Below, piece by piece: positions 117 through 14,120 of a DNA stretch of 64,000 bases. The DNA lies in contig NZ_SEON01000003.1 in NCBI RefSeq assembly GCF_004152845.1, forward strand, positions 62,001 through 126,000, read 5' to 3'. The translations under genes were made by a program, and so were the position numbers. This DNA comes from Sphingobium fuliginis (lineage in GTDB: Bacteria > Pseudomonadota > Alphaproteobacteria > Sphingomonadales > Sphingomonadaceae). The notes under the pieces were generated by a model. The model was given only the letters and a program-made list of their open reading frames with translations, was not told where the DNA came from and did not search any database. Every line of letters begins with the position of its first letter. The first letter of the stretch is position 1.

Positions 117-381
117 TGTCGTCGCCTTCGTCCGTCCCGATGCAGCGCAAGAGCCTGCGGCGGGCGGAACCATTCATATCTGGATGGGGGACCCCCAGCA
201 TTTCGAGATCGGGCACGAAAGCCGCTCCGGGAATAGCTGGGGATTTTTCTCAACCTTCAACAGCGCGGAGGCGGCCATAGGTGCCGCCCACCGGCTGAAC
301 CGCGAGGAATTGGACGGGAAAGCAGAGGTTTATATCCCTGATGCTATCCTGGCCCATATGGCGGGAGGCGTCGGGCGATGA
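109..381 (+). CDS. Small hypothetical phage protein (90 aa)
   Basis: This 90-residue acidic-to-neutral protein has no transmembrane segment or familiar motif. Its ATG overlaps the end of the upstream frame, and its TGA overlaps the ATG of the primase gene at 378 (ATGA), so it is probably translationally coupled within the replication operon. The middle (WGFFSTFNSAEAAIGAAHRLNREEL) reads like a small alpha/beta fold, but that is only an impression. Function is unknown; its position suggests an accessory role in phage DNA replication. Confidence 0.6.
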   Translation: MGDVVAFVRPDAAQEPAAGGTIHIWMGDPQHFEIGHESRSGNSWGFFSTFNSAEAAIGAAHRLNREELDGKAEVYIPDAILAHMAGGVGR

Positions 382-1400
382 GGGAATTTTCCTACTCGGC
401 TACTCCTGCCTATCGTGCGGGGCCGATGAAACAACAAACGGTCGTGGCTGGTCACTATTCCAGATATGGCGCCAAGTGGGGACGCGCCGAACTGCCCCCG
501 ATAGACTTCGATCGGCTGCGCGGGGCCAATCCCTTGGCGGCCGTGGCCGGGGCAGCGGTTAAACTGGTGCGGGCGGGCAATCTGCTGAAAGGCGCGTGCC
601 CGTTTCATGAGGACAATTCGCCCTCGTTCACGGTCTATCCGGACCAGCGGTATCACTGCTTCGGCTGCGGCGCGCATGGCGATGTGGTGGATTTTGTCAT
701 GGCCCTGCATCGTGTCGGCTATGGCGAAGCGCTTTCCCTGCTCGATGGCGGTCAGCTTCCGAAAGTCCCGGTTCGCGAGCCTTCGGGCGATGATCGCGAG
801 AGGCAGCAGCGGATAGACGAGGCGGCCGCGATCTGGGCCAATTCCGGTCCTCTGTCGGGCACCCCTGCGGAGACCTATCTGCGCCGCCGTGCCATCACCA
901 TTCCGCTGCCCGACTGCCTCCGCTTTGCGCGGCTCCGGTTCAGGAATGCATGTCGCCCCTGCCTCGTGGCGCTGGTGCAGTCGCCTAACGGCGATCCTCA
1001 GGCCGTTCATCGTATCTTTCTCACCGAATCCGGGGGGAAGGCTGATCTGCCAGGCGGGAAGGTAAAATTCAGTCTGGGCGTGCTGGCCGGGGGCGCGATC
1101 CGCCTTAGCCCTGTCGCTCCGGAGATGGGGCTGTGCGCGAGCGTGGAGGATGGCTTGAGCCTGATCGAACTGACCGCGCTTCCTGTCTGGGCGGTGACGG
1201 GCGATCCATCCATGGACAAGCTGTTCTTGCCCGATGCGGTGCGTTCAGTCGTGATCGGGCACGATGCCGACCAATCCGGCCGGGACGCTGCCGAGAGGAC
1301 GGCGCAGCGCCATCTGGCTCGCGGACTGCGCGTCCGGACTCTGGCGCCGCTCGACGGCTTCAAGGATTTTAACGCGGAACTGATGGAGGCGCGAAAATGA
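378..1400 (+). CDS. Phage DNA primase, CHC2 zinc finger plus Toprim domain
   Basis: The 340-residue protein should synthesise RNA primers for phage DNA replication. A CHC2 zinc finger lies near residues 72-110, with metal ligands in CPFH (C74, H77) and CFGC (C94, C97). A Toprim-like domain occupies about residues 245-330, with the acidic residue in SVEDG and the metal-binding HDADQSG motif. It is shorter than cellular DnaG and lacks an obvious helicase-interaction domain, as usual for phage primases. It sits between two genes with ATGA overlaps, directly before the helicase, so the pair forms a replication module. A second in-frame ATG at 426 is possible, but the coupled ATG at 378 is preferred. 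Confidence 0.85.
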   Translation: MREFSYSATPAYRAGPMKQQTVVAGHYSRYGAKWGRAELPPIDFDRLRGANPLAAVAGAAVKLVRAGNLLKGACPFHEDNSPSFTVYPDQRYHCFGCGAHGDVVDFVMALHRVGYGEALSLLDGGQLPKVPVREPSGDDRERQQRIDEAAAIWANSGPLSGTPAETYLRRRAITIPLPDCLRFARLRFRNACRPCLVALVQSPNGDPQAVHRIFLTESGGKADLPGGKVKFSLGVLAGGAIRLSPVAPEMGLCASVEDGLSLIELTALPVWAVTGDPSMDKLFLPDAVRSVVIGHDADQSGRDAAERTAQRHLARGLRVRTLAPLDGFKDFNAELMEARK

Positions 1401-2740
1401 GCGCATCTCCTGCGGCGCGGCTCGATCGCGCAAACGAAGTCAGCCTGTCCCCGGCTCCTGTCGCTGAACTGCTGCCGCTTGCAGACCTGAACATCTGGGC
1501 GGTGACGCAGGCCACGCCAAAGCCGTTCATCATGCCGGGTTTCATCCCTTCTGGAGAATTGACCCTCCTGACCGGCGCGGGCGGCGCGAACAAATCCACC
1601 TTCGGCCACCAGCTTGCCACATGCTGCGCTGCTGGCGTTCCTATGCTGGGCCGGGAGGTTCAGCAATGCAGCGCGCTCTATATCACATGCGAAGATGATG
1701 AGGGGCGGCTCCATTGGGTGCAGGAGGGCATTTGCAGGGCGCTGGGGCTGCATCTGTCCGACCTGACGGGGAAACTGCACCTGTCGAGCCTCCGGGGCCG
1801 CCTAGGCAATGTTCTGGGCGCATTTGATGACCGGGGCGTCCTTCATCCGCTGGATACCTTCCTGTCGCTGAAAGCTACCCTGATGAAGACGGGGGCGCGG
1901 TTGCTGGTTCTCGACAATGCTGCCCACCTTTTCGGCGGGAACGAGAATGACCGACAACAGGTGACGCAGTTCGTCAATCTGCTCTATTCGCTGTGCCTTG
2001 ATCTGGGCGTCACGGTCATCCTTGTAGCGCACAGCAACAAGGCTGGGGACAGTTATTCCGGCTCCACGGCGTGGCTGAACGCGGTTCGCTCGCAAATCTT
2101 CATTGGCAGGTCGGAAGACAGCCACGATCCCGACGAGCGCGTGGCCACGCTCGGCAAGGCGAACTATGCGCGCCAGGGCGAGGAATTGCGGTTCCGCTGG
2201 CACGACTTCGCGCTGATCCGCGACGACGATCTGCCCGAAGACAAGCGCGCTGATCTCGCGTCCGCTGCGCAGGCGGCAGAGGAGAATGACCGCTTCATGA
2301 AGTGCCTTGAGAAATGCACGACGGATCGCCGCAATGTGTCCCACGTCAACGGCTCGAACTATGCGCCGTCCATTTTCGCGAAGATGATCGAAGGGCGCGG
2401 GCTGGGTCTTAAGGCGTTCGAAAGGGCGCTGGAACGGCTGCTGCATCTGGGCACGATCAAGCTCGATCAGCAGCTTTGGCAGGACGATCATCGCAAGTGG
2501 AAGAGGGGTATCGCGGCTGCGGCAACCCCTGCGGCGACCCCCCGCGCAACCCCCTGCGGCGACCTGCGGCAACCCCCCTCGCAAGTCATTGAAAATACTG
2601 CGGCGACCTACTGCGGCATCCCCCCCCCTATATATAATATATCGGGCGCGGCCTCTGAGGCCGCCGCGCCCACCGACATGAAGGAGGAATCGAGCATCCG
2701 GACAGTCGATTTTTCGAGTTGGGAAAGGCGGGGAGATTGA
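1397..2740 (+). CDS. RepA-like replicative helicase (RecA-fold, AAA_25 type)
   Basis: This 447-residue ATPase resembles the hexameric RepA-family helicases used by plasmids and phages and probably unwinds DNA at the phage origin with the adjacent primase. A P-loop reads GAGGANKS at residues 60-67, where the usual Gly before Lys is Asn. Walker B is the hydrophobic stretch ending LLVLDNAAHLF, and a VAHSNK sensor motif follows. The last 90 residues are low-complexity (Ala-Thr-Pro and Cys-Gly runs) because the DNA there is an array of 11-bp repeats. The ATG overlaps the primase stop. RadA/DnaB-like function is less likely given the AAA_25-like order of motifs. Confidence 0.8.
   Translation: MSASPAARLDRANEVSLSPAPVAELLPLADLNIWAVTQATPKPFIMPGFIPSGELTLLTGAGGANKSTFGHQLATCCAAGVPMLGREVQQCSALYITCEDDEGRLHWVQEGICRALGLHLSDLTGKLHLSSLRGRLGNVLGAFDDRGVLHPLDTFLSLKATLMKTGARLLVLDNAAHLFGGNENDRQQVTQFVNLLYSLCLDLGVTVILVAHSNKAGDSYSGSTAWLNAVRSQIFIGRSEDSHDPDERVATLGKANYARQGEELRFRWHDFALIRDDDLPEDKRADLASAAQAAEENDRFMKCLEKCTTDRRNVSHVNGSNYAPSIFAKMIEGRGLGLKAFERALERLLHLGTIKLDQQLWQDDHRKWKRGIAAAATPAATPRATPCGDLRQPPSQVIENTAATYCGIPPPIYNISGAASEAAAPTDMKEESSIRTVDFSSWERRGD
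2517..2644. repeat. Iteron-like array (CTGCGGCRACC) next to an AT-rich tract; candidate phage origin
   Basis: Near-identical 11-mers CTGCGGC(A/G)ACC begin at 2517, 2529, 2554, 2564, 2598 and 2611 (the last ends ATCC). They are followed by nine Cs and an alternating AT tract at about 2629-2643. The copies fall in all three reading frames of the helicase gene, so the DNA rather than the peptide is being conserved. Repeats plus an AT-rich segment inside a replication gene recall lambdoid origins. Function as an origin is inference. Confidence 0.5.
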
Positions 2741-2743
2741 TCC

Positions 2744-3121
2744 ATGGGCAGGACGTTTGCCGCGCTGGCGCATATCGAAACCGATCTGCGGGAATGGGCG
2801 GAACGCATGCGCGTGGCGGAGGAGGACGCGGCGAGGCTCCCGGACGATGAAAGGCGCAAGCTGTTCCGGGAACATCGCGAGCGGCAACAGGCCGCGGCGG
2901 ATGCGGGGCGCTATTATCGGGAGGGGCGTCCATCCTATCTCATCGGCCTGACTTGTGGCGCTCGGACGCGATCAGGAAAGCCCTGCGGCATGACGGCGCT
3001 GCATGCGAACGGGCGGTGCATCTGGCATGGCGGCATGTCCACCGGACCCCGCACCCCGGAAGGCCGCGCAAGGGCGCTCGAAAACCTCAAGCTGGGGCGT
3101 CTAAAGCGCGGGAAGTCATAG
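2744..3121 (+). CDS. HGGxSTG-motif protein (phage-associated, unknown function)
   Basis: The 125-residue protein starts with a charged, probably helical N-terminal half. It ends in a small Cys/His region: CGARTRSGKPC, then C-x-W-HGGMSTGP, then TPEG and a basic tail. The paired CxxxxxxxxC...C..H arrangement suggests metal binding. This motif defines a common phage/plasmid family (HGGxSTG domain) without an assigned activity; a DNA- or RNA-binding role is plausible. A GGGGAG Shine-Dalgarno lies just upstream, three bases after the helicase stop, so it ends the replication operon. Confidence 0.75.
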   Translation: MGRTFAALAHIETDLREWAERMRVAEEDAARLPDDERRKLFREHRERQQAAADAGRYYREGRPSYLIGLTCGARTRSGKPCGMTALHANGRCIWHGGMSTGPRTPEGRARALENLKLGRLKRGKS

Positions 3122-3568: not shown

Positions 3569-3892
3569 CTAAAGGGCGTCTTCCAATTCGCGCCCGTCAT
3601 GTTCGCAGCCGCCCGGATCGCTTATGGGGCATCCGGGCCCATTGGCCTTGTGGCGGACCCAATCGTCTTCCATTCCTTCCTGCTCAAGATCGGGATCGCC
3701 ATCCATTTCGTCCATGCGATCGATCATCCGTTGAACCAGCCGCCCGAGCTCTGGACGGGATAGGCTCGGAATGACCGTCAGCAGGGCCGCCAGCGTCGGG
3801 ACGGGTTGGACGGCGCGCCGATCACGGCGGCGGCGCCATGTGCGATTCCGGCGCGGCTGGTAGGGTCTGGCGCGTGGTGCTTTGCTCGCCAT
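3569..3892 (-). CDS. Hypothetical protein with DPDLE / PGGC C-terminal motif (107 aa)
   Basis: The N-terminal 30 residues are extremely Arg-rich (RPYQPRRNRTWRRRRDRRAVQ). A helical middle is followed by an acidic tail containing DGDPDLE, NGPGCP and DPGGCEHDGRELED. The DPDLE...GC...DGRE pattern recurs in small alphaproteobacterial proteins of unknown function. It is the last gene of a four-gene leftward block, two bases after the neighbour ending at 3895. The basic N-terminus suggests nucleic-acid contact, but no fold is recognisable. Function unknown. Confidence 0.6.
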   Translation of the reverse strand: MASKAPRARPYQPRRNRTWRRRRDRRAVQPVPTLAALLTVIPSLSRPELGRLVQRMIDRMDEMDGDPDLEQEGMEDDWVRHKANGPGCPISDPGGCEHDGRELEDAL

Positions 3893-3894
3893 GG

Positions 3895-4323
3895 TCAGCC
3901 CTCCCTTTCCATGAAGGCCCGGATGCGGGCGACCGTGCGGGAGGATGGATCGCGGCCCCTGCGAAGATCGCTCACCAATCGCCTGTCACCTACAGCACCC
4001 TTGCCGAATGCCGTCGCTGACATGCCGGTGCGCTTCAAGACTCGCTCAATCTCCATCAGGATCGGGGGCGCATAATTGGATGACTCACGAACAGGCCGCG
4101 CCGCGGGAAGGCGACTTTTGGGAACCGTCACGCGGCGCGGTGTGGGTCCATCGGTTTGCTGAACCTCGGACTGAGGGGTTGCGACGGTTGCCAGCGTGGG
4201 CACGGACGAAATTCGTTCGCGCTTCTCCTGCAATCGGCTGTTGATCCATTCAATATCGGGATCGGGTTGGATGGCTGGCCGTGCATGCGCCAGGGCGGAA
4301 TAGTTCTGCCGGTAGATCAGCAT
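3895..4323 (-). CDS. Small phage protein with HTH-like C-terminal domain (142 aa)
   Basis: The start is set at ATG 4323, which overlaps the end of the upstream gene by seven bases; a longer frame exists but would run through that gene. Residues 1-80 are low-complexity and polar. The last 55 residues (EIERVLKRTGMSATAFGKGAVGD, RRLVSDLRRGRDPS, ARIRAFM) resemble a Cro/XRE-like helix-turn-helix found in many alphaproteobacterial prophages. It is probably a DNA-binding regulator in the block that faces the palindromic control region at 5121-5205. Assignment as repressor or antirepressor is inference. Confidence 0.6.
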   Translation of the reverse strand: MLIYRQNYSALAHARPAIQPDPDIEWINSRLQEKRERISSVPTLATVATPQSEVQQTDGPTPRRVTVPKSRLPAARPVRESSNYAPPILMEIERVLKRTGMSATAFGKGAVGDRRLVSDLRRGRDPSSRTVARIRAFMEREG

Positions 4324-4535: not shown

Positions 4536-5048
4536 TCAAGCCCCCTTTGGCATGAGGCGGAGGATGTCCTCCCGGATTGCGTCTGCGATGTCGTCGCACC
4601 AAAGGGCGATCTCGTCATCAGCGAACGTCTCATCCAGCTTCCAGCGCAGCGCTGCCAGATCGGGCGCTGGCATCCGCAACAGTTCGACGCGAGCGTCGTA
4701 TTCCGCATCCGCATATGCTTCGGCCTGATCGGTGATGGCGCCAAAGTTATGCGCGCTGCGCCACGCCAAGCAGCGCTCCCGCATCGGCCCCTCGCCTGAC
4801 AAAGCAAAGCTTCCAAACTCTGCTTTCATGGCCTCATAGAGGGGAAAAACATGGGAGCGGTCATATTCCGCCCCCGCTATCTTCGCGGCGGTGAATTGCT
4901 GCATCACGGCATCCCATGTGCCCCGGTTAGCAGTCGGAATGCAGACCAGCCCGGTAGCGGCGCTGGCGGCAACAGGTGTCGCAATTATGGACGGTGCGAT
5001 AATCAGAGCGCGCATGACTTCGCGCCGCGAAGTTGATACTTCGTGCAT
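4536..5048 (-). CDS. Exported phage-encoded protein with Tat-like leader (170 aa)
   Basis: The N-terminus carries a twin-arginine-like motif (TSRREVMRA) followed by a hydrophobic stretch (LIIAPSIIATPVAASAA) with an Ala-x-Ala-type end, so export or membrane attachment is likely. The rest is soluble and acidic, ending in a Trp- and Asp-rich helical region (PAPDLAALRWKLDETFADDEIALWCDD). It is the first gene of the leftward block, about 70 bases from the palindrome array, and so probably the first under control of that region. A Tat-type leader is unusual for a lysogeny-region gene. Function unknown. Confidence 0.6.
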   Translation of the reverse strand: MHEVSTSRREVMRALIIAPSIIATPVAASAATGLVCIPTANRGTWDAVMQQFTAAKIAGAEYDRSHVFPLYEAMKAEFGSFALSGEGPMRERCLAWRSAHNFGAITDQAEAYADAEYDARVELLRMPAPDLAALRWKLDETFADDEIALWCDDIADAIREDILRLMPKGA

Positions 5049-5120: not shown

Positions 5121-5205
5121 TCGTTACGTAACGAGGTTAACGCAGGCGGTCAAGAGTTGTTACGTAACGAATTGTGTGTTAGCGCCTCTCCGTTACGTGA
5201 CGGAG
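5121..5205. promoter_or_regulatory. Three GTTACGTAAC palindromes in a divergent promoter region
   Basis: Sites are TCGTTACGTAACGA (5121-5134), TTGTTACGTAACGA (5157-5170) and the imperfect CTCCGTTACGTGACGGAG (5188-5205). Centre spacings are about 36 and 33 bp. They lie between the leftward block and the rightward gene at 5211, and the third overlaps the GGAGG Shine-Dalgarno of that gene. This layout fits an operator for a dimeric repressor that controls both directions and can also block translation initiation. The binding protein is not proven; the products at 5211 and 3895 are candidates. Confidence 0.65.
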
Positions 5206-5210
5206 GTTTT

Positions 5211-5408
5211 ATGGTTCTGAGCAATGCCGAGCGCCAAGCGGCTTATCGCAAACGGCTGAAAGAGGCCGCATCCAGCACATATGAATTTGAGCTAATGCAA
5301 AAGCAGATCGAACAGCTTACCAAGGCGGTAAACGAGGTCCGCGCCCATGTGGGACTGAGCGAAATTCAGCTGCCCAAGTCAGCTTACAAACCAAAGGCTG
5401 GCGTGTAG
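5211..5408 (+). CDS. Small basic coiled-coil protein, probable DNA-binding regulator (65 aa)
   Basis: The start is ATG 5211, placed 4-5 bases after GGAGG; a longer in-frame extension to 5043 would cover the operator array and is rejected. The N-terminus SNAERQAAYRKRLKEA is a common opening of small phage proteins with a basic helix. A leucine-spaced helix (ELMQKQIEQLTKAVNEVRAHV) could form a coiled coil. A short basic region followed by a coiled coil suits dimeric binding to palindromes such as those immediately upstream, so autoregulation is likely but not shown. Confidence 0.65.
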   Translation: MVLSNAERQAAYRKRLKEAASSTYEFELMQKQIEQLTKAVNEVRAHVGLSEIQLPKSAYKPKAGV

Positions 5409-5440: not shown

Positions 5441-6265
5441 TTGAGTATCCGAACACCAGATATTGACGAACAAGAGTCAAAGCCGCAGGTGCATTCGCAC
5501 TGTCCATCGGAGTTTCGGATTGTGAATGAGAGAGCCAGCGATCCCCAGTACACTGCTCCTCCGATAATCGAAGCGGTCATCGAATTTCGGTTCGCAAACG
5601 GATTGCCCGATGCTGATCTTTCGAAGATCGGAAAGCGCCTGAAACGATCCTACGCCAATCAATTGGACGGCCAGAATGTGGAGTTTCAGTTCAACATTGA
5701 AGCCCAGCACGCGGATTTTTCAACTAAGCCAACCATCCGGCTATCGTCCGAAGATCAAGCAGACATAGCTGTTATTCAACAGCAAACGCTTACCTGGTCT
5801 CGCCTGGCTCCTTACCTTGGATGGGATAGTTTTATTGAGCGAGTTCGATCCGATGCTGAAGAGGTGCACAAGATCGTTGGGCCGTTTAGGTTAGATCGGA
5901 TTGGTGTCCGTTATATAAACCGCATCGATGTTCCGTTGAACAAAGATGGCGGCGCTCCCTACGGAGAGTATTTGGCAATTAACATCGATATTCCCGAAAG
6001 CATCCAATCTGTCAAAAATTATGCTTGGCGATTTGAGTATCAGGTACCTGACAGTGATCTTCTTGCAATCTTACAGTCCGCTATTGTTTCTCCTGAGGTT
6101 CCGAACACGGGGGCATTTATCTTGGATGTTGACGTTGTCGCATCCCAAAACATTCCCTTGCGCATTGATGAGATTTTCATCAAATTAGAGGAAATGAGAC
6201 GCGCGAAGAACAGATTTTTTGAGATGTCCATTCGCGATGAAGCTCGAAGGATGTTCGACAAGTGA
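5441..6265 (+). CDS. TIGR04255 family protein (accessory cassette gene 1)
   Basis: The hallmark of the family is present near residue 40: APPIIEAVIEFRF. The protein continues with a beta-rich region, GVRYINRIDVP, and a C-terminal FILDVDVVASQNIP segment, matching the sporadically distributed TIGR04255 family. The drawn start is TTG 5441; GTG 5522, with GGAG upstream, is an alternative that would remove 27 residues. Codon use is visibly AT-richer than in neighbouring genes, indicating a separate origin from the phage backbone. It overlaps the next gene by four bases (GTGA). No biochemical function is established for this family to my knowledge. Confidence 0.75.
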   Translation: MSIRTPDIDEQESKPQVHSHCPSEFRIVNERASDPQYTAPPIIEAVIEFRFANGLPDADLSKIGKRLKRSYANQLDGQNVEFQFNIEAQHADFSTKPTIRLSSEDQADIAVIQQQTLTWSRLAPYLGWDSFIERVRSDAEEVHKIVGPFRLDRIGVRYINRIDVPLNKDGGAPYGEYLAINIDIPESIQSVKNYAWRFEYQVPDSDLLAILQSAIVSPEVPNTGAFILDVDVVASQNIPLRIDEIFIKLEEMRRAKNRFFEMSIRDEARRMFDK

Positions 6266-8531: not shown

Positions 8532-9642
8532 CGGCATTCCCATGGGCATTTTTGGCGCGCCGCAGATGAGGCAGCGTGTCAGTGGGGGTTATGGGATCGG
8601 CGCAGAGGAGCCGGGGCCGAAGGTTCCTTATGGCCTGCTCGCCAATCCCGCTTACTGGACTCCCGGAATCGGTGACGGCCAGCCCGGCGCAATGTCCGCC
8701 CCTTCGCCTGCTGATGGTCAGCGGGGGCCTGTATCGCTGATGCCGCTCGACATGCCGCTGCAAAAGCCCGTCCTTCCAGAAAACCGACCGAGACCGGAAT
8801 TTGTGCCCATGACGCCGCTGCCTGGCGTTAAGCCCAAGCAGCCTGCTTTCTTTGGCGAGGGTGGTACGGGCCGGAATATCATTGGCGCAATCGCTGATGC
8901 GATGCTCCAGATGAACGGAGCGCGCCCGATCTTCGCCCCAGCCATGGAGCGGAAGCAACAGATGGCCTATCAGCAGAGGCAGCAGCAGGCGGAATGGAAC
9001 CGGCAGGACGCGCAGCGGCAGCAGGATCACCAGTGGGCGGTTGAGGACAGGGACTGGAAGGCGAAGCAGCCTCGCTATTTCGCATCGGGCCGGGATCAGG
9101 TGGAATATGATCCTGCCACCGATGTTGCGAGGGTCATCTATGACGGCCCTGCCGACTTTGAGGAATATGCCGCCACGCTGGGACTCGAACCGGGAACCGA
9201 CGAATACAACGAGGCTGTGCAGGATTATCAATTGCGGGGTAATGGCCCGACCGCTCTTGCCGGTCGTAGGGAAATGGAAAATCTCCGCCAGGGCAACCGC
9301 GTCTCCATGGAGGGGATCAGGCAGACCAACCGCGCCGCGCTGCGGGGCATGCCGACCTATTCCAATCTCCATCCTCGGCCCGCTGGCGGTTCGGGTGGAG
9401 GGAACCGTGGTGGGCCGCCGCGTTCGACCGGGCAAGTCTATGCGCCGATCTTCGCGAAGGTGGCGCGTGGTGAACCCCTGACAGCGGGCGAGCAGCAAAT
9501 TTTCAACCTCTATGGCCGTGGCGGTCGTGGAACTGGCGGCAAGTCCGCAGGATCCTCGTCCGGTGGCGGCAATCCTGTTGCGACCGACGCCAAGGGCAAT
9601 AAGGTCCAGTGGGACGGCAAAGCGTGGAGGCCGGTAGGCTGA
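8518..9642 (+). CDS. Virion-associated hypothetical protein (374 aa)
   Basis: The start is ATG 8518; a TTG lies one codon earlier. The N-terminal third is Pro- and Gly-rich and disordered. The middle has a highly charged Gln-rich helix (KQQMAYQQRQQQAEWNRQDAQRQQDHQW), and the C-terminus is Gly/Ser-rich. The arrangement (disordered start, long Gln-rich coil, glycine tail) resembles internal or ejected proteins of podovirus-like particles. Its stop overlaps the ATG of the giant protein (TGATG), so the two are co-translated and probably assembled together. Function is inferred only from context. Confidence 0.6.
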   Translation: MLGSNGIPMGIFGAPQMRQRVSGGYGIGAEEPGPKVPYGLLANPAYWTPGIGDGQPGAMSAPSPADGQRGPVSLMPLDMPLQKPVLPENRPRPEFVPMTPLPGVKPKQPAFFGEGGTGRNIIGAIADAMLQMNGARPIFAPAMERKQQMAYQQRQQQAEWNRQDAQRQQDHQWAVEDRDWKAKQPRYFASGRDQVEYDPATDVARVIYDGPADFEEYAATLGLEPGTDEYNEAVQDYQLRGNGPTALAGRREMENLRQGNRVSMEGIRQTNRAALRGMPTYSNLHPRPAGGSGGGNRGGPPRSTGQVYAPIFAKVARGEPLTAGEQQIFNLYGRGGRGTGGKSAGSSSGGGNPVATDAKGNKVQWDGKAWRPVG

Positions 9643-12600
9643 TGGCTGGCGCACCTCCGCCGCCTCCCGGCTTCCGGATCATCGACCAGCCAGAACCGGC
9701 TGCGCCCAGCTTTGGCGCTGGTGTGCCCCCTCCGCCTCCGGGGTTCAATCTGGTGCCCACAGGCGAAGCCCATGACGGCGACACGTTCCGGCTCAACAGT
9801 GGGCAGAATGGCCGGCTGTTCGGCGCGGATGCTTTTGAGCTGGATCAGCAGGGCATGCAGGGCGGACAGCTTGTCCCGCTCGGCCAGCAGTCCCGCGCTG
9901 CGCTGATCCCCTATCTTCGCCCTGATGCGACCGTGACGCCGACAGGCTCCAGCACCTATGGGCGCCCGGTGGTTTCGCTGTCTGCTGGTGGCGCTGATGC
10001 TGGGCGGGGATTGCTGGATCAAGGCTTGGCGCTCGCTACGCCGCAATATTTGAAGGGCAGTCCGCTCCTTACGGACTACATGGAGGCCGAGCGTGGCGCA
10101 CGCCTCAACCATCGCGGGGCCTTCGCTGGCCAGTTTCAGAATCCCGCCGATTATCGGAAGGGGAAACCTGATCCTTGGGCGCAGCCGGAATGGCAGGACG
10201 CGCCGACGCCCGGAAGCCGCGCCGTGTTCTTCGATGATCCCACGCCCTTTCAAGGCCTGCGCCCGGAGATCGCGGAGGGCTATCAGAAGATTTGGACGGA
10301 CCCCAAATCCACGCCTGATGATCTGCTTGCCTATGCCAAGGCGAACGGCTTCATCATCGACCCTGAGACGACGCGCAAATCCTATGCGGAGCGTGCGAAG
10401 CGCGGCGCCGATCCGACCATCCGCTATGCAGCGGAGCCTCCCCGCCTGCTGACCAATCAGGGCGATGGCGCGATAGGTGCTGGTGTCCGTGGCCTGTCGG
10501 ACCCCATCAACATGCTTGATGAGATGGGCGGCGTAGTGGACTCGCTCGGCCTGACGCCGGGGCGCGAAAATGTCTGGGACAGCGATCGACGCTTCGCGGA
10601 TATCCTGCACAACAACATTGACCAGAACCGCAGCATCCTTGCCTATGACGACGCGAACCATCCCTATGCGCGCTTCGGCGGCCAACTTGCGAGCGGCCTT
10701 GTGCTGCCGGGTGCATCGGTGGAAGGCGTCGGCCTTGCTGCTGCCCGGCAAGCTCTGAGGGCGGGCGGATCGCGGTTCGCGGCGAAGGAAGCTGCACAGG
10801 CGGCGGCTCGTTTGAGGCTGGCGCAGGCTGGGGCTATCGAAGGTGGATTCGCTGGGTTCGGCTCCGGCGAGGGCGGCGTGATCGACCGTCTGCCATCTGC
10901 TGGCGTCGGCGCTCTGACAGGTGGCGCCCTTGGCTATGGGACAGGGGCGCTTGCGCAAGAGGTTGGCCCTGTCGCGCAGCGCGTCATTGCCCAGCTTCGG
11001 GGACAGAGCGCGGCGGATGCAGCAGCAAGCCAGCGGCCTCGCATCAACGTGCCGGAGATGCCTCCGCTGTCGGCCCAACCGACAGTGGCGGGCATGACGG
11101 CGGAGGGTGTTCCGCCCATGCCTTCTATCACCTCGCCGCGCCTTGTCGACCGCATCGACGTGAACGCAGGGCCGCGTCCATTGCTTGATCCCGCAACCGA
11201 GATGCAGCGCCGCGCTATGGCGGAGCGGGTGAACCCTGCTGACCTTCTGCCGCTGCCCTCCAATGTCGTTGCCAGCCAGGAAGAGGCCGCATCGATCGGT
11301 GCCGGGCTATATCCCACCATCAAGGCGCCTAATGAAGCATCGGCGCTGGAAAGCCGCATGTTGCCGCGTGGCGACGATCCGGGGCGGATGTTGCCGAAGC
11401 GCGGCCCTGCCGATCTTGTCACCTTCCTGCGCAGCCAAGGCGGCGTGATCGATCAGGGCGGCGAACTGCGGGCCTTGGGGATCACGGACAACGCCGGGCG
11501 CGATCTGGACTTTTCACGCGGGGAACAGCGCTTCGGCAGGCTGGTGGACAATGAGAACGGCATGCCGCTCGATCAGGCGGCGGACCTTGCATGGCGTTCG
11601 GGCTATTTCCCCGACCATGCGGAGCGCCCAACCATCGGGGAATTTCTCGATGCGGTCGACAACACGAACCGGGGCGTCAATCGGTCTTTCCGTCCTGATG
11701 ATCTGGCGGAGGTCGACGCCTTCAACGCTGCCCGCGATCAGCGGTTTGCGGTCGAACGGGCGAGGGATCGGGGGACGCCCCTTGCGGAGGATCGCGGCCA
11801 GCCCGTCAGCATGGACGATCTGGAGGCGAACCAGCCGCCGCTGTCGGCCTATGAGGAATGGGGCGATCAGGCTCCGGACTTCGCGGGCAACATCCGCCTG
11901 TCGAAGCTGGACAGCCCACAATCCATCCAGCGGGCGTTGAGCCAGGTCGATCGCATGACGGGTGGATTCGACGCCGCCCGCCGCGGTCGCATCACTCAGG
12001 CTGAGACGCAGAGCCTTGCCGATGAATTGGGCATGACGCCCGACCAGTTGCTATCGCGGCGCAAGGGGCAGGCATTCAACGCGGAGGAGGCATTGGCCGC
12101 CCGTCAAATCCTCGCCAAGTCGGGCAACGAACTCGTGAACATGGCGCGGCGAATCCAGCGGATGGACGATCCCGGCGAAGAGGCGCTATCTGCCTTCCGG
12201 CAAGCGCTGGTCCGTCACGTTGCCATTCAGGAGCAGATTGCCGGGGCGACGGCGGAAGCGGGTCGCACGCTCGCGCAGTTCCGCATGGTGGCCGATGGCC
12301 GCAACGTGCGCGGCAATGTCCTCAACGCCCTGTCGGAAGGTGGCGGGGGCAAGGATCGTCTAAAGGATGCCGCCGACCTGATCCTTGAAGGCGACAAGAC
12401 CGATCCGGGTTCAGTGAACCGCGCCGCTCGCGATGCGCTCAAGCCGGGATGGGGCGACAAGTTCAAGGAACTGTGGATCAACTCGCTTCTGTCGGGGCCG
12501 CAAACGCATGTGGTCAATGCCGTGTCCAACACCATGACGGCGCTTGCGCAGATTCCGGAGCATGCCATTGCCGCGTCCTTCGGCGGCGTCCGCAATCTGG

Positions 12601-14120
12601 CGGCGCGGGGCAAGGTTGCTGACCGTGTGCTGTTCTCCGAATTGGGGGCGCGATCGGTCGGGCTGATCCAGGGCGTGAAGGATGGATTGCGACAGGCGGC
12701 GCGTACCCTGCGGACGGGCGAGGCGTCGGACTTCGCGGGGAAGGTCGATACCGTGCATCAGGACGCCATCAGCGGCGTGAAAGGCAAGATCATCCGCACG
12801 CCCACGCGGCTCCTGTCCTCGGCGGACGAGCTATATAAGGCGATGGCGCGGCGGATGGAATTGAACGGGCTTGCCGTCCGGAAGGCCGCGGCGGAAGGGT
12901 TGCGGGGTGACGCGGGCAAGCGCCGAGCTGCTGAACTGGTCGCGAATCCTACCGATGAAATGCTGGAGCAGGCATTCGATTATGGCCGCTATCTGACCTT
13001 CCAGCGCCCGCTGGGTAAGGTGGGCAGGGCCGCCACGATGTTGAGCAATTCCAGCCCGGTCATGAAGATGGTTCTGCCGTTCGTGCGGACGCCTACCAAT
13101 CTCCTGAAATTCTCGCTGGAGCGCTCACCCGCTGCGCCGCTGCTGTCGGAATGGCGGCGCGACTTCCGCGCAGGCGGGGCGAAGCGCGATCTTGCTGTTG
13201 CCCGCGCCATGGTAGGATCGGGTGTCGGCGCGCTGGTGATGGAACTGGCTTCGCAGGGGCTTGTGACCGGCAACGGCCCAGCCGACGAAAAGGCCCGCGC
13301 CCTGATGCTTGCAGATGGCTGGCAACCCTACTCCATCAAGATCGGGGACGAATATCTGAGCTATCAGCGCCTCGATCCCTTCGCCTCCACCCTCGGCGTG
13401 GCGGCGGGAATGGTCGAGCTGCAGGATCACATGACCGAGAAGCAGCGCGAGGACGTGGCCCTGCTGGTGACGGCCTCTGTCATGCAGAATCTTTCCAGCA
13501 AGACTTGGCTTTCCGGGCTGGGCGATCTGGTGGACGCGGTGAACGATCCGGGCCGCTATGCCAATAGCTGGATGAAGCGCACGGCGGGTTCGCTGGCCGT
13601 GCCAGCCGGCGTCGCACAGTTGGCGCGGACGGCTGATCCGACGCTCCGGGAGGCGGACACGATCCTTGATGCTGTGCGCCGCCGCGTGCCTGGCATGTCG
13701 CAGTCCCTGCCGGTGCAGCGGGACGTGTGGGGCCGTCCTGTCACCAGCGAAGGCGGGGTTGGTCCTGATATCGTGTCGCCCGTCTGGCTTTCGACGCGCC
13801 AAGGCGATCCGGTCAACAATGCCCTGCTGAATGCCGATGTCACTGTGCCGTCCTTCGTCCGCAAGGACATGACGCCAGAAGAATATGGGCGGTTCCGGGA
13901 GATGGCTGGCGCGACCAGCTACAATGACATTGCCGGGCTGATCGGTTCGCCGGATTGGACGGCGATGCCGGGTGACGATCAGCAGGAGGCTGTGAACAAG
14001 ATCGTCAAGGCGGCCCGGAAGCTGGCGAAGGAGAATATGGGCGTCGGTGCGGGATCTATTCCGCCACCCCCTCCGGGCTTCTCGATCCCTCCGCCGCCAC
14101 CTGGATTCACGATCCAATGA
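9642..14120 (+). CDS. Giant virion-like protein with N-terminal SNase-type nuclease domain (1492 aa)
   Basis: A staphylococcal-nuclease-like domain covers about residues 38-170. The expected catalytic residues are visible: DGDT (D47), R58 in RLFG, D63 and E66 in ADAFE, and R108 in YGRPV. PPPPPGF repeats flank the N-terminus (residues 5-11 and 29-35) and recur twice at the very C-terminus. The long middle is Ala/Gly-rich with hydrophobic patches (about residues 345-445), followed by helical regions, as in ejected internal virion proteins. It could travel with phage DNA into the host. SNase activity is predicted from the residues, whereas an ejection role is inferred from size and position. Confidence 0.65.
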   Translation: MAGAPPPPPGFRIIDQPEPAAPSFGAGVPPPPPGFNLVPTGEAHDGDTFRLNSGQNGRLFGADAFELDQQGMQGGQLVPLGQQSRAALIPYLRPDATVTPTGSSTYGRPVVSLSAGGADAGRGLLDQGLALATPQYLKGSPLLTDYMEAERGARLNHRGAFAGQFQNPADYRKGKPDPWAQPEWQDAPTPGSRAVFFDDPTPFQGLRPEIAEGYQKIWTDPKSTPDDLLAYAKANGFIIDPETTRKSYAERAKRGADPTIRYAAEPPRLLTNQGDGAIGAGVRGLSDPINMLDEMGGVVDSLGLTPGRENVWDSDRRFADILHNNIDQNRSILAYDDANHPYARFGGQLASGLVLPGASVEGVGLAAARQALRAGGSRFAAKEAAQAAARLRLAQAGAIEGGFAGFGSGEGGVIDRLPSAGVGALTGGALGYGTGALAQEVGPVAQRVIAQLRGQSAADAAASQRPRINVPEMPPLSAQPTVAGMTAEGVPPMPSITSPRLVDRIDVNAGPRPLLDPATEMQRRAMAERVNPADLLPLPSNVVASQEEAASIGAGLYPTIKAPNEASALESRMLPRGDDPGRMLPKRGPADLVTFLRSQGGVIDQGGELRALGITDNAGRDLDFSRGEQRFGRLVDNENGMPLDQAADLAWRSGYFPDHAERPTIGEFLDAVDNTNRGVNRSFRPDDLAEVDAFNAARDQRFAVERARDRGTPLAEDRGQPVSMDDLEANQPPLSAYEEWGDQAPDFAGNIRLSKLDSPQSIQRALSQVDRMTGGFDAARRGRITQAETQSLADELGMTPDQLLSRRKGQAFNAEEALAARQILAKSGNELVNMARRIQRMDDPGEEALSAFRQALVRHVAIQEQIAGATAEAGRTLAQFRMVADGRNVRGNVLNALSEGGGGKDRLKDAADLILEGDKTDPGSVNRAARDALKPGWGDKFKELWINSLLSGPQTHVVNAVSNTMTALAQIPEHAIAASFGGVRNLAARGKVADRVLFSELGARSVGLIQGVKDGLRQAARTLRTGEASDFAGKVDTVHQDAISGVKGKIIRTPTRLLSSADELYKAMARRMELNGLAVRKAAAEGLRGDAGKRRAAELVANPTDEMLEQAFDYGRYLTFQRPLGKVGRAATMLSNSSPVMKMVLPFVRTPTNLLKFSLERSPAAPLLSEWRRDFRAGGAKRDLAVARAMVGSGVGALVMELASQGLVTGNGPADEKARALMLADGWQPYSIKIGDEYLSYQRLDPFASTLGVAAGMVELQDHMTEKQREDVALLVTASVMQNLSSKTWLSGLGDLVDAVNDPGRYANSWMKRTAGSLAVPAGVAQLARTADPTLREADTILDAVRRRVPGMSQSLPVQRDVWGRPVTSEGGVGPDIVSPVWLSTRQGDPVNNALLNADVTVPSFVRKDMTPEEYGRFREMAGATSYNDIAGLIGSPDWTAMPGDDQQEAVNKIVKAARKLAKENMGVGAGSIPPPPPGFSIPPPPPGFTIQ

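Follow-up and report, generated by a model that had tools for sequence, protein, structure and literature searches.

The IncQ plasmid RSF1010 replicates from an oriV that combines iterons with hairpin primer sites, and its replication proteins are a helicase, RepA, a separate iteron-binding protein, RepC, and a primase, RepB'. Neither lambda O, the initiator of phage lambda, nor the RepA protein of the PLE satellites of Vibrio cholerae, an initiator of the RepA_N type, is known to be a helicase. The lambda origin is described as four iterons (six in Stx phages) in the middle of a gene, together with an AT-rich region (PMC7466680), and the PLE origin as three semi-palindromic iterons of ~30 bp in an intergenic region (PMC8263062). 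For SaPI, the C-terminal domain of the Rep helicase is described as recognizing iterons that lie directly downstream of its own gene (PMC7581432, PMC6092414), and the origins of E. coli PICIs as an AT-rich region with iterons grouped in two sets around it (PMC6092414). The repeat array described here probably serves an integrated phage-like element as its origin of replication, with the helicase encoded at the same place acting as its own initiator.

The window, by which we mean the whole stretch of 64,000 nucleotides of Sphingobium fuliginis DNA that was analyzed, carries a primase gene directly upstream of a helicase gene, with a 4-bp overlap between them (Table 1). A preliminary description made from the bare sequence had proposed a RepA-like helicase and a neighboring primase, and both identifications are supported, the primase by Pfam and the helicase by Pfam, by a sequence match in the PDB, and by Foldseek. 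The closest solved relative of the helicase is RSF1010 RepA, both by sequence (PDB 1g8y, E 2.6e-20, profile positions 37-281) and by fold (1nlf in Foldseek, E 1.3e-13). The RSF1010 RepA chain (279 aa) aligns with the helicase core alone, and the helicase described here continues into a predicted C-terminal winged-helix domain. Winged-helix proteins top the VIA-align list for this domain (many at Z 6.6-8.5, best 8.5), and Foldseek gave no specific family match (best E 0.05); as there are many winged-helix matches and none of them is specific, no family was assigned.

Outside the window, 1-4 kb from its left end, are genes for an integrase (phrog_1) and an excisionase-like protein; inside it, an internal virion protein is encoded at 9609-14120, and housekeeping-type genes begin at ~16.1 kb. 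Among the proteins scanned from this element of ~20 kb there was no portal, capsid, or large terminase, and with its integrase and internal virion protein it may be what is left of a prophage or a prophage of an unusual kind. Directly 3' of the helicase gene is a small gene (2744-3121) for a 125-aa protein of phrog_6177 (unknown function) with Cys-containing stretches and an HGGMSTGPRTPEGR motif. Further along, three near-identical palindromes, CGTTACGTAACG, start at 5122, 5158, and 5191 (0, 1, and 1 mismatches; 4 matches in the window vs 0.56 expected). They occupy 5122-5202, adjoin two oppositely oriented genes (4536-5048 on the minus strand and 5211-5408 on the plus strand), and are likely operators of the element's switch.

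Table 1. Features of the locus in window coordinates, and repeat words in the window and in related loci (L numbers).
Feature	Position	Strand	Details
DnaG-type primase gene (CHC2 zinc finger, DUF7146, Toprim_3)	378..1400	+	Pfam PF01807 7.7e-22, PF23639 3.5e-23, PF13362 6.8e-11
RSF1010-RepA-type helicase gene (RecA-fold, AAA_25), C-terminal winged helix	1397..2740	+	447 aa; PF13481 2.1e-31
Winged-helix domain of the helicase, proposed to bind the repeats	2237..2518	+	residues ~281-374; AlphaFold models, block pLDDT mostly >90
Direct-repeat (iteron-like) array, word CTGCGGCRACC	2517..2621	+	copies at 2517, 2529, 2554, 2564, 2598, 2611
IHF-like site CAAGTCATTGAAA	2582..2594	+	one mismatch to the consensus YAANNNNYTGATW; within the 34-bp gap 2564/2598
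Nine-C run	2620..2628	+	separates the array from hairpin 1
Hairpin 1	2630..2642	+	stem ATATA/TATAT (5 bp), loop TAA; atypical, relatives mostly with TAC/TAAA/TAAC loops
Hairpin 2	2644..2671	+	GC-rich stem GGGCGCGGCC...GGCCGCCGCGCCC, bulge on 3' side; inverted repeat I15; equivalents in relatives
Repeat word TGCGGCRACC			window, L011 (L011 by eye)
Repeat word TGCGCYRACC			L009, L082, L085
Repeat word TGCACNRACC			L012, L014, L018, L045, L050, L078 (L012 by eye)
Repeat word TGCGGGNAAC			L019, L023, L028
Repeat word CCGGAAAC			L013, L016, L017, L025, L026, L066, L088, L093
Repeat word CGCACAAC			L022, L029, L072
Repeat word CCCGAAC			L015, L048, L073, L076
Repeat word GCGCTGAC			L005-L007, L047
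Repeat word CCGATGAC			L030, L075
Repeat word TGCGCTGAC			further type among the relatives

Within the helicase gene, the preliminary description had noted six copies of an 11-bp repeat in three codon frames, followed by a C run and an AT tract. All six copies are present, five of them exact and the one at 2611 with one mismatch, and a further degenerate copy can be recognized by eye at ~2541-2551. Offsets of the six copies from the gene start at 1397 are 1, 1, 2, 0, 1, and 2 modulo 3, confirming the use of three frames, and nine Cs and an AT tract (2629-2642) do follow the repeats. Counted with up to one mismatch, the word has 14 matches in the window against 7.4 expected, which by itself is weak evidence because 4 of 100 shuffles reach 14. 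Across the whole 4.6-Mb genome there are 13 exact CTGCGGCRACC words, 5 of which fall inside 92 bp of the array, and Tandem Repeats Finder scores 2517-2576 at 60; the clustering of the repeats is real and not a matter of chance. The copies are spaced 12-25-10-34-13, which differs from the 12-11-13-10 seen in some relatives; one slot is taken by the degenerate copy and the 34-bp gap by an IHF-like site. This off-pattern spacing, together with the TAA loop of hairpin 1 and the single mismatch in the IHF-like site, makes the window a poor example of its kind.

Within the family, taken as Sphingomonadaceae, 32 of 397 genomes encode proteins like the helicase, the genome of the window itself among them (E 1e-10); further ones were found in 19 of 296 genomes of the order sample and 9 of 385 of the class sample (both E 1e-25), and also in IMG/VR contigs. 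A profile of 27 helicases matched 92 loci, 65 of which met score and length limits, and removal of 12 exact duplicates left 53 distinct loci (the window and 52 relatives) in which the match spans to the end of the winged helix. When an array was defined as at least five copies of one 8-mer (up to one mismatch) in the 200 bp around and behind that end, 50 of the 53 loci had a dense array there, compared with 6 of 615 control windows. The loci below this threshold were L012, L027, and L053, the last of which has a divergent helicase tail and no array that we could see. The repeat words themselves vary by lineage, with about ten in all (Table 1). The window's own word has just two stray single matches in the first seven relatives; we rejected it as a measure of conservation, as it would have wrongly counted against the array. 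The preliminary description had similarly proposed to dismiss the repeats if relatives showed no conservation of sequence, and this too would have misled, as the word varies while the place, the spacing, the link to the winged helix, and the two hairpins recur.

Spacing is partly kept between lineages in which the word differs. Of 307 distances between adjacent copies, 231 are 9-14 bp, 32 more are 20-24 bp, and 15 are 33-36 bp (the site finder disallowed spacings below 9 bp, and L053 was excluded here and from the later sets), and the best period is 11.4 bp. The ordered spacing 12-11-13-10 occurs exactly in 12 of 53 loci, where 1000 order shuffles gave a mean of 0.3 and a maximum of 3, and within 1 bp in 27 of 53 (mean 7.8, maximum 15 in the same shuffles). 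Because this order is shared across several different words, it is clear that a scaffold recurs while the wording changes in all copies together.

The repeat word turns over with the winged-helix domain. Over 48 loci, from which L027 (three sites) and near-identical loci had been dropped, similarity of word correlated with similarity of the winged-helix domain (r 0.49; partial 0.48 given the core; 0 of 2000 permutations), whereas the partial correlation with the helicase core was 0.08, and in 15-residue windows along the protein the correlation with the word climbs where the winged-helix domain begins. The array and the winged helix are adjacent on the DNA, and linkage may contribute part of this correlation. 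Closeness is nevertheless insufficient to account for it, because the adjoining hairpins, compared in 44 of the 48 loci, do not track the word (partial 0.07) and follow the helicase core instead (r 0.38); for the further 100 bp the correlation with the word was r 0.13 in the same 44 loci. One relative, L025 (G306), has a core like those of L002 and L026 and a winged helix and array like those of L016 and L017, with the swap point near the start of the winged helix and the array carried along; judged from its sequence, it looks like a natural domain swap of winged helix plus array. At the level of single residues, the position before a conserved Tyr is Asn in 23 of 26 loci with A before the final AC of the word and Thr in 9 of 11 loci with G (37 loci; Fisher 8e-5, or 1e-4 over 25 clusters), nine loci without a clear AC end in the automatic word having been omitted along with L001 and L008. 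This association is only suggestive because several core columns rank as high in raw mutual information, and since it was found by looking we treat it as a lead. Taken together, the comparisons suggest indirectly that the repeats may be bound by the winged helix of the helicase.

Behind the array, a hairpin of at least 5 bp with a TAC, TAAA, or TAAC loop on the coding strand (hairpin 1) is present in 39 of 49 loci and in none of 125,365 nt of flanking sequence, a contrast that is somewhat inflated since the loop set was derived from the same data; the complementary loop is found at this spot in 0 of 49. The 43 loci with a typical loop and a stem of at least 4 bp have 39 distinct stems, which span 0 to 6 G/C of 6, and three or four pair types occur at each of the first five positions (recounted without six atypical picks). 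A comparison of stem pairing with that of shuffled arms (256 of 270 cells) is biased, as the stems were selected for pairing, and in L008, L023, and L076 it picked a hairpin other than hairpin 1; the case for hairpin 1 therefore rests on the identity of its loop and its absence from the flanks. The AT tract, which had been read as an unwinding element, is the window's version of this hairpin, and as the stem varies so widely in G/C content the tract is not simply an unwinding element; AT-richness is not conserved in relatives, and we rejected a conserved element of that kind. A second hairpin, GC-rich and often bulged, follows hairpin 1 in relatives, and its region folds better than shuffled sequence (median z -1.8, 21 of 45 loci below -2; controls, median z 0.05, 4.8% of 294 below -2). 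Exact matches to the IHF consensus number seven in 6,847 nt of array sequence, spread over 4 of 49 loci, and none in 111,405 nt of flank; with one mismatch allowed there are 13 in the array sequence (9 of 49 loci, including the window) vs 24 in the flank. In L032, L052, and L077, the exact site occurs twice per locus, 68-69 bp apart.

Several functions other than replication initiation could be imagined for such a region. The array may be an operator or a partition-like site to which the helicase tail binds in order to regulate its own expression, control copy number, or segregate the element; the covariation of word and winged helix would fit this equally well. The array lies, however, at the 3' end of the helicase gene and not upstream of the primase-helicase pair, and hairpins and IHF-like sites beside that pair suit an origin better; we consider an operator or partition role unlikely. 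That the repeats are the product of replication slippage, or of a functionless low-complexity protein tail, is very improbable: although in most loci translation of the array gives a protein tail of variable sequence, and copies inside one locus resemble one another, an ordered, unequal spacing is shared across different words, and the word tracks the winged-helix domain. In 13 of 52 loci most of the array lies past the stop codon, and in 40 of 52 it uses all three frames, which upholds the initial view that the repeat is kept at the level of DNA and likewise argues against a protein tail.

Transcripts offer another possible site of action for the hairpins, and perhaps for the array. The HK022 put element is a tandem stem-loop RNA antiterminator, and an antiterminator of this kind, or an mRNA 3' element, would be consistent with the strand specificity of the hairpin-1 loop (39 of 49 sense, 0 of 49 antisense) and with the folding of the hairpin-2 region. 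Yet hairpin 1 precedes the stop codon in 32 of the 43 typical-loop loci and lies past it in 11, so ribosomes would open it in most of them, and a role of this kind explains neither the repeats nor why they vary with the winged helix. An intrinsic terminator was rejected, as no T run follows hairpin 2 in the window, and Rfam returned nothing near a gathering score, the sole match being a microRNA family at 25.5 bits (gathering score 70), which we take as chance. A role in the transcript in place of one at an origin seems quite unlikely; the strand specificity of the hairpins would fit action in RNA equally well.

Arrays can also be found with much diverged helicases, for which each locus was scored by its highest 8-mer count among up to 12 windows. 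Five of 22 such loci (L059, L061, L062, L065, L094) have at least seven copies, and L059 alone has a typical hairpin. The other 17 gave no convincing array, at least three of them ending at contig ends, and loci with five copies (L003, L004, L035-L037, L056) were not counted because the figure is the best of up to 12 windows. Related helicases occur in 48 phage records, 43 of them Microbacterium phages, and in five plasmid records; of these, MT837765, the phage WO record KX522565, and two of the plasmids were inspected for arrays. The first of these, a human-faeces phage contig (L095, MT837765.1) whose helicase is 41% identical, ends inside an CCCCAAAC array (6215-6250), the word also found in L051. 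In Wolbachia phage WO (L098), seven repeat copies lie behind a RepA-like ATPase, where 200 mononucleotide shuffles reach five, along with an AT-only TAAA-loop hairpin, which in DNA of this composition may have arisen by chance. Words resembling AAGTTGGC occur on both strands at 3716-3940 of this locus, which is a candidate for the WO origin. An Azospirillum locus (L099) has six copies (shuffles reach five), a TAAC hairpin, and two exact copies of the IHF site, 59 bp apart. A relative on a Campylobacter plasmid (L100) showed no array beyond what shuffles gave.

The array shares with iteron-type origins several direct repeats at a regular, helically phased spacing, and of the resemblance to lambdoid or plasmid origins first proposed, this spacing and the lambda-like position inside a replication gene hold, while conserved repeat sequence and conserved AT-richness do not; initiation itself would follow by analogy. 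In RSF1010, RepB' is a primase of another type than the CHC2/Toprim primase found here, and the likeness to that plasmid lies in the RepA-type fold predicted for the helicase. As in SaPI and PICI, a primase and a putative initiator helicase stand in a row, with the primase alongside in the window, and repeats sit right at the 3' end of the helicase gene in the window and its relatives. Primase and initiator are sometimes fused in PICIs, and 24 of the 52 relatives have open frames of at least 600 aa, but Pfam detected no primase domain in the four long proteins scanned, which gives a fusion no support. The helicase itself, in which Pfam finds AAA_25 and a KaiC-type ATPase only, is of the RecA-fold RSF1010-RepA type, unlike the Rep proteins of SaPI and SCC, which are described as belonging to other helicase families (PMC7581432). 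Instead of two iteron sets flanking an AT-rich region, the window has one array and then hairpins. Lambda is similar in that repeats described as binding the initiator lie inside its own coding sequence and are followed by another element (PMC7466680), whereas here the gene encodes a helicase, not an O-type initiator that recruits that of the host, the array occupies or follows its 3' end, and hairpins replace the AT-rich region. Since the locus differs in these defining features (helicase family, origin layout), we do not file it with either group. A parallel to the turnover of the array is PLE, where the DNA-binding domain of the initiator is described as covarying with the origin and working as an exchangeable module, the remainder of the protein being conserved (PMC8263062). 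By analogy, the best reading is an origin that would work like those of SaPI/PICI and lambda with a different helicase family.

For initiation, we propose that a RecA-fold helicase, like the hexameric RSF1010 RepA, carries an added C-terminal winged helix that would bind the repeats ending its own gene. Several protomers could then sit side by side on the array, about one helical turn (11.4 bp) apart. Where repeat slots are replaced by an IHF site or by two, as in some members, these sites would bend the array. Binding of the tail to the array would deliver helicase rings to the side of the hairpins, at which point the primase could start synthesis. The hairpins would act on one strand only, either as a structured single strand on which the adjacent primase makes primers or as an aid to strand opening. 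GC skew showed no flip at the array and was uninformative across the element.

A literature search over titles and abstract openings, with few subscription journals covered, returned no report of such arrays with RepA-type helicases. Whether the loci make up a class of phage origin that is widespread and so far undescribed is in our judgment evenly balanced; in such a class, a RecA-fold helicase of the RSF1010-RepA type would self-initiate via a winged-helix tail that binds the array at the end of its own gene, the wording of the array would turn over with that tail on an 11.4-bp scaffold, and the strand-specific TAC/TAAA hairpin would be a dedicated priming site. The natural variants of such a class would give a readable code of protein-DNA specificity. 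If the proposed origin is right, a RepA/RecA-fold helicase loads itself at an origin, as has been described for SaPI Rep, SV40 T antigen, and papilloma E1 (PMC7581432). With dozens of natural initiator/origin pairs, about ten words, and a shared geometry, a residue-to-base rule then becomes testable. So do the reasons for which origins diversify, such as incompatibility, superinfection, or origin-targeting nucleases, of which Odn in the PLE system is a described example (PMC8263062). The array also suggests a route to locating the origins of alphaproteobacterial prophages.
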